NCBI GenBank assembly: GCA_913058265.1
Contig: CAJXPQ010000003.1
Location: 248,001-312,000, forward strand
DNA: 64,000 nucleotides
Direction of reading: 5' to 3'
DNA from: an uncultured Oligoflexia bacterium
GTDB taxonomy: Bacteria > Bdellovibrionota > Bacteriovoracia > Bacteriovoracales > Bacteriovoracaceae
Below the pieces are notes generated by a model that saw nothing but the letters and a program-made list of their open reading frames with translations, was not told the DNA's origin and made no database searches. Numbering within the stretch: position 1 is the first letter of the stretch; the number at the start of each line of letters is the position of its first letter. A program made the translations under genes and the position numbers. This document shows positions 16,725-46,740 of this stretch, in pieces.

Positions 16725-18545
16725 TTATAAAATCTTCTCTACAACAACCTCTTCTCCTAGATTTAATCTTCCGTAATCAAGAAGATCCTGGGAGATAGTT
16801 ATATTATCATCTTCAGTTATTTTAGCTAGTTTTCCCTGTGCTGACTTAAGTCCGCCATACCACCATCTTTTGTCACGAAGGTAAATGAGATCACCTTCAT
16901 CAATATCTAAGTCTGCTGCTTGATTTCTTCCTAATGTGATTAAATCATTACCATCATTTTTTGCGAGGAGAGTTCTTATGGGTTTTGATTCACGTAAATT
17001 TACTTTCCCTCCCTTAAATATTTCCATTCCTTTGTGAATTGAATCTACCACGAGACCATCTATATTTTCTTTAGGCTTTGTAAACTTTGATACTACGACA
17101 GCAATAATTCCACATGTGATAAGTGAATAGAGTGCTCGCATATATTTAAAACCACCCTCGTCGCTCACTCCATGTGCTACGGGAGCAATGATGGAAGGTT
17201 CAATTAATGAGAAGAGCACCATTCCAGAGCCTGCTAGTAATGTGTAGAAGGCGGCCTTGGGAGTGAAATTTTTCCAAAAAGCTCCAAGGATAATCACTGT
17301 GACCATTGGGGGAGTAATAGAGGCGGTAAACATTGCATGAGCTGTATATATAGAGCCAAAAGAATTGAATACTGGTACTAGGATGACACCTACTATTGCC
17401 GAGAAGATGGCTATAAGTTTTGCAATTCCTAGGTAGTGCTTATCATCGGCCTCTGGCTTTATATAAACTTTATAAATATCATTCACTCCAATTGCAGAAA
17501 TTGCATTAATTAGAGTATCTACGGTACTCATTAATGCAGCAGTGAGTGCGGCCATAATAAAGCCAAATACACCTGGCATGGCCACGATGTTTGCAACTGT
17601 GACAAAGATATCTTTTGGATTCGTGTCTGCTGGTAGTAAGCCGTTTGTCACCATGGCCCTACCTAGCCATCCACCGTTTGCAATTGCAATCATAGCAATT
17701 GGCATTAAGCATATAACAACAAAGCTGACGGCCTTCCTCCCTTCTTTAACTGATTTTAAAGAAAGGAATCTCATCATAACTCCTTGATTCATAAAGTAAA
17801 AAGCTGTCGTGTTTGCAACAGCATCCTGCCAGAATAACCCTATGAATGGGAATTTATGATGAGTATTAAAAGGTGGTTGAGGTAGCCGGTGAGCTAAATC
17901 TAATCCTGATAAGAAATTATCAAAACCTCCGAGGTAGTAGATACCTAAACCAAAGAGTAAAAAACCAGCAATAACTAAAATAAATGCCTGCAAGAGATCT
18001 GTGAAAATGACAGCAGTCTGCCCACCAAAGTGAAGATAGATACCACTGATCACTGCAATAATAATGACAGTTGGCATAAGTGGGACACCAAGAATTTTTG
18101 TCAATGCTACACCTAGAGTAAGAAGGTTGATTCCAACATAACCTATAAGATAGAGGAGAATGATTATCGTCGCCATTAATCTAACATTTTTGTTAAACCT
18201 TCGTTCAAAGTATTCAGGTATAGATCCTGTTCTTGAGTAGTAAATAATTGGTAGCCAGCCAAAAATAAAGAAAGGGAGGACAATCCAGTCGTTAAGGTAA
18301 CCAGTTGAGCTTGAGAGGCCGTAAGTAAAACCAGCTGTTGAATATTTTATAAAGCTATAGCTACCAACAACTGTGGCGACACAACTTGCAGCTATAAGCC
18401 ACCATGAAAATCGTTGACCACCAAAAAAGAAGTCTTTAGTTGTTGTTGTAAATCTTCCAAAGTAACTTCCAAAAAGCATAATTGCTAAGAAGTACATAAC
18501 GATAACTACATAATCAGTAGTAGTACCTAATTGTTGAACTTCCAT
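16725..18545 (-). CDS. Sodium:solute symporter (SSS family) with C-terminal extension
   Basis: 606 residues. About 13 hydrophobic helices cover residues 10-475; typical SSS features are the unwound first helix with FFFGGQRFSWW, a conserved GG-x-x-AV segment (HFGGQTAVIFTDLLQAFIL) and the later STVDTLINAISAI helix carrying Na2-site Ser/Thr. The last 120 residues are soluble and end with repeats of IDEGD/ITEDD-type turns, an unusual cytoplasmic extension. The substrate cannot be told from sequence. It overlaps by one base the small membrane protein upstream, so they are probably co-translated. Confidence 0.88.
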   Translation of the reverse strand: MEVQQLGTTTDYVVIVMYFLAIMLFGSYFGRFTTTTKDFFFGGQRFSWWLIAASCVATVVGSYSFIKYSTAGFTYGLSSSTGYLNDWIVLPFFIFGWLPIIYYSRTGSIPEYFERRFNKNVRLMATIIILLYLIGYVGINLLTLGVALTKILGVPLMPTVIIIAVISGIYLHFGGQTAVIFTDLLQAFILVIAGFLLFGLGIYYLGGFDNFLSGLDLAHRLPQPPFNTHHKFPFIGLFWQDAVANTTAFYFMNQGVMMRFLSLKSVKEGRKAVSFVVICLMPIAMIAIANGGWLGRAMVTNGLLPADTNPKDIFVTVANIVAMPGVFGFIMAALTAALMSTVDTLINAISAIGVNDIYKVYIKPEADDKHYLGIAKLIAIFSAIVGVILVPVFNSFGSIYTAHAMFTASITPPMVTVIILGAFWKNFTPKAAFYTLLAGSGMVLFSLIEPSIIAPVAHGVSDEGGFKYMRALYSLITCGIIAVVVSKFTKPKENIDGLVVDSIHKGMEIFKGGKVNLRESKPIRTLLAKNDGNDLITLGRNQAADLDIDEGDLIYLRDKRWWYGGLKSAQGKLAKITEDDNITISQDLLDYGRLNLGEEVVVEKIL

Positions 18546-18748: not shown

Positions 18749-18932
18749 ATATAACTCCTGTATAAATTTTCTAAGATAATCAAATGGAGTATTCCATAAA
18801 ATTAAAAAAAAGAAAAAATAAAAGTAGTGTCAATTAGTCTTCTAAATAATGCTGCGCAAGGTGCGTTTTGATTCTTTCGACAAAAAGAAACCATGTACAT
18901 TTTATATAATCAGTAATTTAACCGTGTTTTAT

Positions 18933-18949
18933 TTGGCACAGTGATTGCG
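18933..18949 (+). promoter_or_regulatory. Sigma-54 (RpoN) promoter
   Basis: TTGGCACAGTGATTGCG matches the RpoN consensus YTGGCACN5TTGCW almost perfectly, with GG at -24 and GC at -12 separated by exactly 10 bases (GG 18935-18936, GC 18947-18948). Transcription would start near 18960, about 50 bases before the ATG of the cysteine-rich repeat protein. Upstream DNA should hold an enhancer-binding protein site; none was identified by eye. Confidence 0.75.
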
Positions 18950-19011
18950 TTTAGAACGAAGAATAAAAAGTTAAATTTCTATTAGGGAAATCGGGACAAA
19001 GGGGGAACGCT

Positions 19012-20727
19012 ATGCGTTGTTTTAGGAAGTTTTTATTATTATCATTAAGTTTTCTCATCACATTATCTCTGGGCGCTTATGCTCAAACAAGTGAAGATGA
19101 AGATGTTTCAAGATTATTAGACATTAGAGAACAAGATCAACTTGTTATGTACGGTGAGTATGTAGAAGTAGAAATCTCCTCTAAAAAAGATGTTGAGCTA
19201 AGTTTAATAAATGAAGTAAAGCCATTCGGTTTAGAAATTGAAATGGTTGATTCAAAAACAGCAATTATTTATGGACAAGTAGAGTTCCAAGACAAGCTAT
19301 GTTTTCTTGTAACTGCAAAAGTTAAAAGAGGAAATGTTACAGCTGAAAGACTATGTCTTTATAGCGAAGAAAATGAAAATATCGATTATCCTCAAATTTC
19401 AACAAATAGATACTTAGAAGAAGTTAAAGCTAATCAATATACAAGCATTACTGTTAGTGTTGAAGATCAAGGTGTTGCAGTTGATACATCAGTGATTGGG
19501 CAGCTTCCTGTAGGTCTCTCAGTTTCGAGTACTAATGGCAACGAAGTTGTTCTAACAGGTACAATTAATGAAGCCGGAATGCATGAAATCGTAGTAAAAG
19601 CTGCTGAAGCATACTCTGAAGTCGTTACTTTTAAGCAATTTGTAATTGAAGTAACTGAGCAAGATAGAACTTATCAATGTGCTCCTGGATATTACTGGGA
19701 TGACTATTTAAACTACTGTGTTCAAGCAGGTGGTAGAACTTGTGGACCAGGAACATTTTGGGACACAACGACTCAGACATGTATGGCATACAACACTCAT
19801 AGATCTTGTCGAATTGGAACATACTATGATCACTACCTAGGTCGATGTGTGAGATCTGGTGCTCAAAGATGTCCATTAAATTATGAGTGGGATGGTTACT
19901 ACAATAGATGTGTACGCCTTCCATACACTTGTTCTTTTTCTCAGAGATATGATTACAGACTTCAAAGATGTGTAAGTATTTTTAGAACAAGAACTTGTTC
20001 AATCGGTACTTGGTGGAACTCTTACAGAAGAAGCTGTGTGAGAAATATCAGTACTTGTTCTTCTGGTAGATACTGGAATGGTAGAAGATGTGAAAGCCAT
20101 GTTAGAACTTGTAGTGTCGGAAGATACTTTGATCCATCAAGAAGAAGATGTGTATCAAGATCAATTAATAGAACATGTAGAATTGGATCAACTTGGGATT
20201 ACGGTAGAGGTAATTGTCATAGAAGACCAGTAATTATAAATAGAACTTGTAGAAATGGAAGTCGATGGTCATCAAGAAATAGAAGTTGTGTTAGACATGA
20301 TGATGGTAGAATAAATAGAAGACCTCATAGACCTCACCGTCCAACAACAAGACCGAACAGACCGACTAGACCAGATCGTCCAACAACTAGGCCTAATAGA
20401 CCTAGATCAGATCGACCAACAACAAGACCAAACAGACCTAGACCTGATCGTCCAACAACTCGTCCGAACAGACCGAATAGACCTGATCGTCCAACAACAA
20501 GACCGAACAGACCGACTAGACCAGATCGTCCAACAACAAGACCGGACAGACCGACTAGACCTGATCGTCCAACAACACGTCCGAACAGACCGACTAGACC
20601 TGATCGTCCAACAACAAGGCCAAACAGACCGACTAGACCTGATCGTCCAACAACAAGGCCGAACAGACCTAATAGACCGGACAGACCTACTAGACCAGAT
20701 CGACCAAGACGTAATAGAAATGATTAG
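19012..20727 (+). CDS. Exported cysteine-module protein with Arg/Pro-rich repeat tail
   Basis: 571 residues. Signal peptide (about 1-25, ending GAYAQ); two putative Ig/cadherin-like beta domains (about 40-215); ten short modules of the form C-x2-G-x2-(W/Y)(D/N)-x5-6-C from about 222 to 440, each probably closed by a disulfide; then about 120 residues made only of Arg, Pro, Thr, Asn and Asp, repeating DRPTTRPNRPTRP. The modules grow richer in Arg towards the C-terminus. The protein would be very basic and extended, fit to bind acidic polymers, cell walls or DNA. Its promoter is sigma-54 type. No homologous family is recognised. Confidence 0.85.
   Translation: MRCFRKFLLLSLSFLITLSLGAYAQTSEDEDVSRLLDIREQDQLVMYGEYVEVEISSKKDVELSLINEVKPFGLEIEMVDSKTAIIYGQVEFQDKLCFLVTAKVKRGNVTAERLCLYSEENENIDYPQISTNRYLEEVKANQYTSITVSVEDQGVAVDTSVIGQLPVGLSVSSTNGNEVVLTGTINEAGMHEIVVKAAEAYSEVVTFKQFVIEVTEQDRTYQCAPGYYWDDYLNYCVQAGGRTCGPGTFWDTTTQTCMAYNTHRSCRIGTYYDHYLGRCVRSGAQRCPLNYEWDGYYNRCVRLPYTCSFSQRYDYRLQRCVSIFRTRTCSIGTWWNSYRRSCVRNISTCSSGRYWNGRRCESHVRTCSVGRYFDPSRRRCVSRSINRTCRIGSTWDYGRGNCHRRPVIINRTCRNGSRWSSRNRSCVRHDDGRINRRPHRPHRPTTRPNRPTRPDRPTTRPNRPRSDRPTTRPNRPRPDRPTTRPNRPNRPDRPTTRPNRPTRPDRPTTRPDRPTRPDRPTTRPNRPTRPDRPTTRPNRPTRPDRPTTRPNRPNRPDRPTRPDRPRRNRND
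20331..20705 (+). repeat. In-gene tandem repeats of about 39 bases coding (DRPTTRPNRPTRP)n
   Basis: About eight imperfect copies of a 13-codon unit encode the Arg/Pro tail. Copies vary at synonymous positions (aca/act, cgt/aga, ccg/cct) and in whether Asn, Thr or Asp sits between prolines, so the array is old but still close enough for recombination to change the copy number. Confidence 0.85.
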
Positions 20728-20749
20728 AGTGAGTTAATAATACTATAGG

Positions 20750-20778
20750 GCCCCTTATGAATTAAGGGGCTTTTTTTT
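20750..20778 (+). terminator. Rho-independent terminator
   Basis: Stem GCCCCTTA / TAAGGGGC with a 5-base loop and eight T, 22 bases after the repeat protein's stop and directly before the end of the opposing peptidase gene. Confidence 0.9.
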
Positions 20779-46148: not shown

Positions 46149-46547
46149 CTAGATTTTAAATTTCGCCATTCTTACAAAGGCCGCATCTGCATTAAGCTTG
46201 ATCTCTTTAATTACACTTTGATCAATAACGATCTCGAAATCTGTCATTTTATCCTCAAGTTGTATTTTTTGTATCTCTTTATTATTGATATTAATTGTTA
46301 GAGTTGAATCCTCACTGATGGCCTGAGCTCTTATTGTAAGTTTTCTAAACTGGTCTTGGTTAACTTCTCTAATAAGATCTTTGGTTGAGATATTTAGCTC
46401 ATCACCGTCGTATAAGTAGCTATTAATTTTATGAATTGCTTGATGTCCTGTATGGGCCTGGCCCATATGCATAGGTATTAGAAGCATAAAACTTAGTACG
46501 GTTTGTAAAAGTAAGATGTTTAAAAATGATTTCTTTGTATTTTGCAT
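46149..46547 (-). CDS. Small exported protein of unknown function
   Basis: 132 residues. A hydrophobic N-terminal segment (FLNILLLQTVLSFMLLIPMHMGQAHTG) with a signal-peptidase-like end (GQAHT). The mature part has no Cys; it looks beta-rich (IRAQAISEDSTLTININNK). No SD of good strength except a GGGGAAATT 5' of the ATG. It stands apart from sfsA. Family not recognised. Confidence 0.65.
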   Translation of the reverse strand: MQNTKKSFLNILLLQTVLSFMLLIPMHMGQAHTGHQAIHKINSYLYDGDELNISTKDLIREVNQDQFRKLTIRAQAISEDSTLTININNKEIQKIQLEDKMTDFEIVIDQSVIKEIKLNADAAFVRMAKFKI

Positions 46548-46740
46548 AATTTCCCCATTGTCTTGAACATTCCCTGTTATATAAATGTATAAGCAACTAT
46601 TATGCCAAAATAGTATAAGCTAATATTGCATTAAGAAGTATTTTGGTCTATGTTAAGTACCTGTTAATACATAGAGAATTATGGTGAATTACTTTATGCC
46701 TAATATTGGCAAAGCCTCTTAAACAGTGTGTTTTGGCCCT

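Follow-up and report, generated by a model that had tools for sequence, protein, structure and literature searches.

The gene at 19012-20727 (+) of the window, by which we mean the whole 64-kb stretch of DNA that was analysed, encodes a 571-aa exported protein with orthologues in relatives, and it is preceded by a -24/-12 promoter element that has been conserved along with the gene family throughout the phylum. Judging from the sequence comparisons, control of the gene by sigma-54 is strongly supported, and export of a product with disulfides is predicted with near certainty. The explanation that we lean towards as a whole is that of a stand-alone sigma-54 unit for a multivalent scaffold or adhesin that is exported and inducible.

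Promoter element and its conservation with the gene family

The promoter TGGCACAGTGATTGC is located at 18934-18948 (+), where its GG (18935-18936) and GC (18947-18948) are spaced ten bases apart (GG-N10-GC), and 10/10 positions of the TGGCAC-N5-TTGC core are matched, the optional W after the core being a G. According to the first-pass annotation, a near-perfect -24/-12 element lies 63 bases ahead of the gene, and this is indeed what is present, with 63 bases separating the element from the ATG at 19012. It is the one 10/10 core match in the window, and ten are found in the 3.23-Mb genome, in which the pattern with at most one mismatch is matched 154 times, compared with 32 times for the reversed pattern. 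At sigma-54 promoters the transcript starts about 12 nt downstream of the -12 GC, a geometry from which the start for this gene is predicted at 18959-18961 (+). A G-rich Shine-Dalgarno-like element, GGGGGA, follows at 19001-19006 (+), and GGGGG before the start is enriched in the family (17/32 members vs 28/373 control ORFs); such an element is unusual, and may point to translational control or to extra-strong initiation. Past the gene, an intrinsic terminator composed of an 11-pair stem and then a T run (20747-20773, +) shows the gene to be a single, monocistronic transcription unit. Elsewhere in the window, a second sigma-54-like site, TGGCATAATAGTTGCT (9/10; 46592-46607, -), was observed before an ORF with a signal-peptide-like N-terminus (46152-46547, -).

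For the assessment of conservation, one rule was applied to all genes, with a span that ran from 160 nt ahead of the first start codon to 60 nt past it, and the 260 control genes were drawn from the same genome stretches as the family members. A GG-N10-GC element scoring at least 8/10 was found in 22/26 family members and in 9/260 other genes (p = 6e-22, a value that overstates independence, as family members share ancestry and the samples are non-independent), while a score of at least 9 was reached by 15/26 members and 2/260 other genes. An earlier count with chosen starts had given 23/32 members vs 1/133 controls, the one control being a truncated family member. No promoter was found within 110 bp in seven members, and two others (L187 and L197) show a weak match within this distance, implying that sigma-54 control is not universal in the family. 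When the 200 bp upstream of the gene were compared among close relatives, only three blocks could be aligned, namely a palindrome, the -24/-12 element, and the Shine-Dalgarno sequence. Moreover, the -24/-12 site is retained though the gene neighbourhoods differ across the phylum, which suggests that the promoter travels with the gene.

It is this conservation with the gene family that lifts the promoter match beyond chance. One could suppose that the match arose by coincidence within 64 kb and that a housekeeping promoter transcribes the gene, given that weak matches abound in the window (29 sites vs 20 expected at up to two mismatches); yet no sigma-70-like site was found upstream of the gene on the + strand, and both the phylum-wide conservation and the footprint alignment of the upstream regions speak against such a coincidence, which we consider extremely improbable. 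The sigma-54 promoter that we favour shares with known ones the GG-N10-GC core in its TGGCAC-N5-TTGC form, a palindrome approximately 70-80 bp upstream of the -24 element, and a genome that encodes both RpoN and GAFTGA activators. It differs from them in that its target lies outside the classical nitrogen, flagellar, and pilus genes, and in that, over a whole phylum, the promoter keeps to one family of exported proteins.

Candidate activator site and the sigma-54 complement of the genome

The palindrome is imperfect in the window (CAAGGTGCGTTTTG, 18857-18870, +), where it represents a candidate activator site, and its consensus among relatives reads CAAGGTGCACYTTG. Variants of CAAGGTGCACYTTG or GCACGGTGCAC stand 67-81 bp ahead of the -24 element at the window gene and in six relatives, whereas the palindrome of G032 is weaker and lies about 120 bp before it; shuffling of the individual upstream regions gave p = 0.0005-0.03 per gene. 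Enhancer-binding proteins usually sit at such a distance upstream of the -24 element, and we regard the palindrome as a probable, still putative, activator site. A different reading, in which it would serve as the terminator of the preceding gene, appears unlikely. The window sequence, GCGC-AAG-GTGCG followed by TTTTGATT, was classed as terminator-like, and several relatives have the palindrome just past a FecR/barrel gene; nevertheless, the T run is absent in most relatives, the distance to the -24 element is constant at 67-81 bp, and the palindrome is also present in G014, at an unrelated locus. Outside the close-relative family the palindrome was not found. By counting, its use as a genome-wide regulon motif was rejected, as 32 matches were obtained vs 38 for the reversed motif at two mismatches, and the one perfect match in the genome lies inside a coding gene.

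The genome encodes RpoN (PF04552, E 5.7e-61; G000:C15:8259-8735) along with nine high-scoring Sigma54_activat proteins, six of which have a GAFTGA or GSFTGA loop. Together with the conserved -24/-12 element and the conserved upstream palindrome, this inventory strongly supports the sigma-54 control that had been claimed for the gene. By co-occurrence, L094 (G000:C2:38033), one of the six GAFTGA activators, came into question as the specific activator, being absent from G002, a genome that lacks the gene; this candidate was rejected, as the L094 family occurs in 120/129 genomes of the order.

The sigma-54-like sites of the genome were also surveyed, the sites listed being the first 100 of 154 promoter-like sites. 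Among the matches listed, 13/16 intergenic sites that were inspected stand before exported proteins, a count that leaves out a 16S rRNA match and relies on simple rules for the assignment of export and of start codons. The genes behind these other sigma-54-like promoters are mostly ones for exported proteins and lipoproteins. The 13/16 count fits the view of sigma-54 as a controller of the bacterial exterior (PMC3162934). In addition, one sigma-54-like site is situated just past a GAFTGA-type activator gene and before a 119-aa ORF (G000:C5:97018-98770), an arrangement that may represent a local circuit.

Protein architecture and likeness to known domains

The protein starts with a Sec signal peptide (19012-19083, +), recognised by eye and as an N-terminal helix in the model, with cleavage predicted after AYA. 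Two Ig-like domains follow, the first at aa 36-120 (19117-19371, +) with a Cys97-Cys115 pair that is present in 29/29 members, and the second at aa 127-216 (19390-19659, +). Ten Cys beta-hairpin modules of the form C-x2-[GN]-x2-[YWF]-[DSN]-x5-C then occupy aa 223-426 (19678-20289, +), nine of them spaced C-x12-C and one C-x10-C, and the protein ends in an Arg/Pro/Thr-rich tail (20308-20724, +) that is encoded by a 39-bp tandem repeat (20328-20678, 9.2 copies according to TRF). The exported protein with ten disulfide-like modules that the first-pass annotation described was therefore recovered from the ORF, signal peptide included. No membrane or wall anchor was found in the protein.

AlphaFold2 prediction with 29 sequences reached a mean pLDDT of 84.6, compared with 66.3 with eight sequences, and placed two beta-sandwich domains ahead of one beta-hairpin per Cys pair. 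An Ig-like beta-sandwich fold was obtained for both head domains, mostly with pLDDT >90. Foldseek matched structures of the tandem Ig and cadherin type as well as the adhesin SraP, with E down to 5e-9, while whole-query TM-scores were low because the head alone matches. For the second domain, the He_PIG match remains weak, with 16.4 bits vs a Pfam cut-off of 24, and SraP (4m03) was matched weakly as well. The head thus shares the tandem Ig-like fold with He_PIG and SraP-type cadherin-like Ig adhesins, but it has two copies only, the first carrying a disulfide, and neither an LPXTG motif nor a Ser-rich stalk.

Over 259 modules, the hairpin consensus is C-x2-G-x2-[YWF]-D-x5-C-V, with an aromatic residue at +6 in nearly all, and the Cys scaffold is invariant across the family, whose proteins have about 7 to 15 modules. 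Searches by sequence and profile found no solved structure of such a hairpin array. The Pfam profile CBM_14 (PF01607) matches all 29 members, and the lead protein scores 38-40 bits (40.3) vs the whole-protein cut-off of 22.1, a high value that is probably the sum over many repeats; its match covers profile positions 25-53 of 53 only. The C-x12-C pair of the modules corresponds to Cys450-Cys463 of human chitotriosidase, a disulfide that is conserved in CBM14 domains (PMC4844120). Accordingly, the hairpins are similar to the C-terminal half of the CBM14/peritrophin-A profile with its conserved disulfide, sharing the C-x12-C hairpin, the glycine at +3, the aromatic residue at +6, and the aspartate at +7, whereas they are bacterial, form about ten tandem half-domains, and contain two Cys per module instead of six, so that no full-length CBM14 domain with its six conserved Cys was found.

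These matches could be taken to mean that the array is a chitin-binding one of the CBM14/peritrophin type, which in the sea would attach the cell to particles of chitin or the surfaces of eukaryotes. All 29 members match the profile, the lead protein clears the cut-off, and the equivalent disulfide is the conserved one. In CBM14, however, an exposed ligand Trp is located two residues past the last Cys (Trp465 of CHIT1; PMC4844120), and the modules have W at this position in 1.5% and any aromatic residue in 6% of the 259 cases, such that sugar binding is not implied by their residues. With the partial profile match, two Cys per module, and no CBM14 structure found by profile search, we regard chitin binding as very doubtful. 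Membership in CBM14 was rejected, four of the six Cys and the ligand Trp being missing from the hairpins.

The tail of the window protein consists of 33% R and 29% P and carries a net charge of +34, so the repeat and the strong basicity reported by the first-pass annotation are there. As a functional feature the basicity is not supported, as orthologues have neutral or acidic tails. All measured members have Pro-rich tails, composed of R/P/T in the window, M/P in G028, K/P/G in G100, and S/T/G in G014, and their charge ranges from +79 to -12; this variation between orthologues makes a fixed charge-based function unlikely, and DNA or peptidoglycan binding by charge is accordingly an unlikely conserved role of the tail. 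TonB and other envelope proteins possess Pro-rich spacer tails with X-Pro repeats. With TonB-type spacers the tail has in common its extended X-Pro repeats, fast evolution, and low complexity; here, by contrast, it is C-terminal, comes without a TonB domain, and has a wholly species-dependent composition (RP, MP, KKPGP, STG). Six further exported proteins from the same bacterial family also show closely similar RPNRPTTRP repeats; at least two of these proteins (L009 and L010) have another C-terminal domain, and the repeats may be convergent or may reflect shared repeat DNA.

Distribution, neighbourhood and possible role

Homologous module arrays, for which the first-pass annotation had proposed a search, were found in relatives: a hairpin-array profile matched 33/369 genomes from across the phylum, which belong to at least 12 families, after an earlier profile search had found 13/129 genomes of the order. 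Searching with the window protein itself returned orthologues in the same bacterial family, and a contig scan with the single protein returned one relative only, Halobacteriovoraceae bacterium SI075_bin7 (MAG). A search for plasmid carriage of the gene gave no match. Titles and abstracts of the literature on Bdellovibrio with RpoN, sigma-54, or peritrophin contain no description of the family, which, as far as these titles and abstracts go, appears to be undescribed.

In seven Halobacteriovoraceae-type genomes the gene comes after genes for a lipase, an ABC transporter, DedA, ExbB, and ExbD, and mostly a FecR/beta-barrel gene. A sodium:solute symporter gene (16725-18545, -) stands between the FecR/barrel gene and the cysteine-hairpin gene in the window genome only, among those compared. 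In the rest of the phylum the gene has unrelated neighbours, without ExbB/ExbD. In three genomes of three families (L106, L210, and L216), a large membrane protein (FSG..SLVYESIWIRVLSLGVG), the same in all three, comes behind the gene; it resembles a fused spermidine-synthase-type protein, and this recurrence suggests transfer of the gene pair.

This neighbourhood bears on where the protein acts. Sigma-54 control might be real while the product is a periplasmic, cell-wall-associated scaffold and not a surface adhesin; the hairpins would then bind the cell's own peptidoglycan, and the Pro-rich tail would span the periplasm like TonB-type spacers, perhaps acting with the neighbouring ExbB/ExbD/FecR-barrel genes. 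Consistent with this are the ExbB-ExbD genes upstream in the seven related genomes, the X-Pro repeats of the tails, and the finding of no outer-membrane anchor or secretion signal in the protein besides Sec. G002, of the same genus, cuts both ways, as the FecR/barrel gene and the cysteine-hairpin gene are absent from it together while the ExbB-ExbD block remains, i.e., these two genes persist without the hairpin gene. Furthermore, G016 and G074 have the hairpin gene without the FecR/barrel gene, and outside one family the gene occurs in unrelated neighbourhoods that lack ExbB/ExbD. A periplasmic scaffold is hence, to our mind, a somewhat unlikely reading.

For the inducible scaffold or adhesin that we favour, we surmise the following course of events. 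A bacterial enhancer-binding protein would occupy the palindrome about 75 bp upstream, contact the closed sigma-54 polymerase at 18934-18948 by looping, and, upon its signal, open the complex by ATP hydrolysis, whereupon transcription would begin near 18960 and the G-rich Shine-Dalgarno would give strong translation. After crossing the inner membrane via Sec, the protein would reach an oxidising compartment in which its Cys pairs are predicted to form disulfides, one in the first Ig-like domain and ten stapling the ten beta-hairpins. The product would consist of a head of two Ig-like domains, some ten aromatic-rich hairpins in a row, and a fast-changing Pro-rich tail that may act as an extended spacer.

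The first-pass annotation had seen in the protein a structural or adhesive coat protein. Its export and its modular extracytoplasmic design are well founded, and on the basis of this architecture a structural or adhesive role is plausible and is the reading that we prefer, whereas the attachment to prey that the same annotation proposed would be a speculative use of the protein. Whether it acts in the envelope or on the extracellular surface as a multivalent protein of this structural or adhesive kind we judge to be evenly balanced, and a repeating polymer, for example a glycan, is a quite tentative candidate for its ligand. It is possible, though we hold this with less than even confidence, that tandem disulfide half-CBM14 hairpins form a phylum-wide exported family which is defined, on the regulatory side, by a sigma-54 promoter of its own and whose promoter and gene are mobile as a unit, and that a common Bdellovibrio-like signal to an enhancer-binding protein switches on a dedicated protein of the surface or matrix, perhaps while the predator is free-living or attaching.

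A family of proteins that appears undescribed and has a definite structure would in this way be tied to one regulator across a largely uncultured, partly predatory phylum, which points to a role of sigma-54 there in the control of exported proteins. The regulon is directly testable in a culturable relative, and the activity of the promoter could report the timing of cell-surface remodelling.
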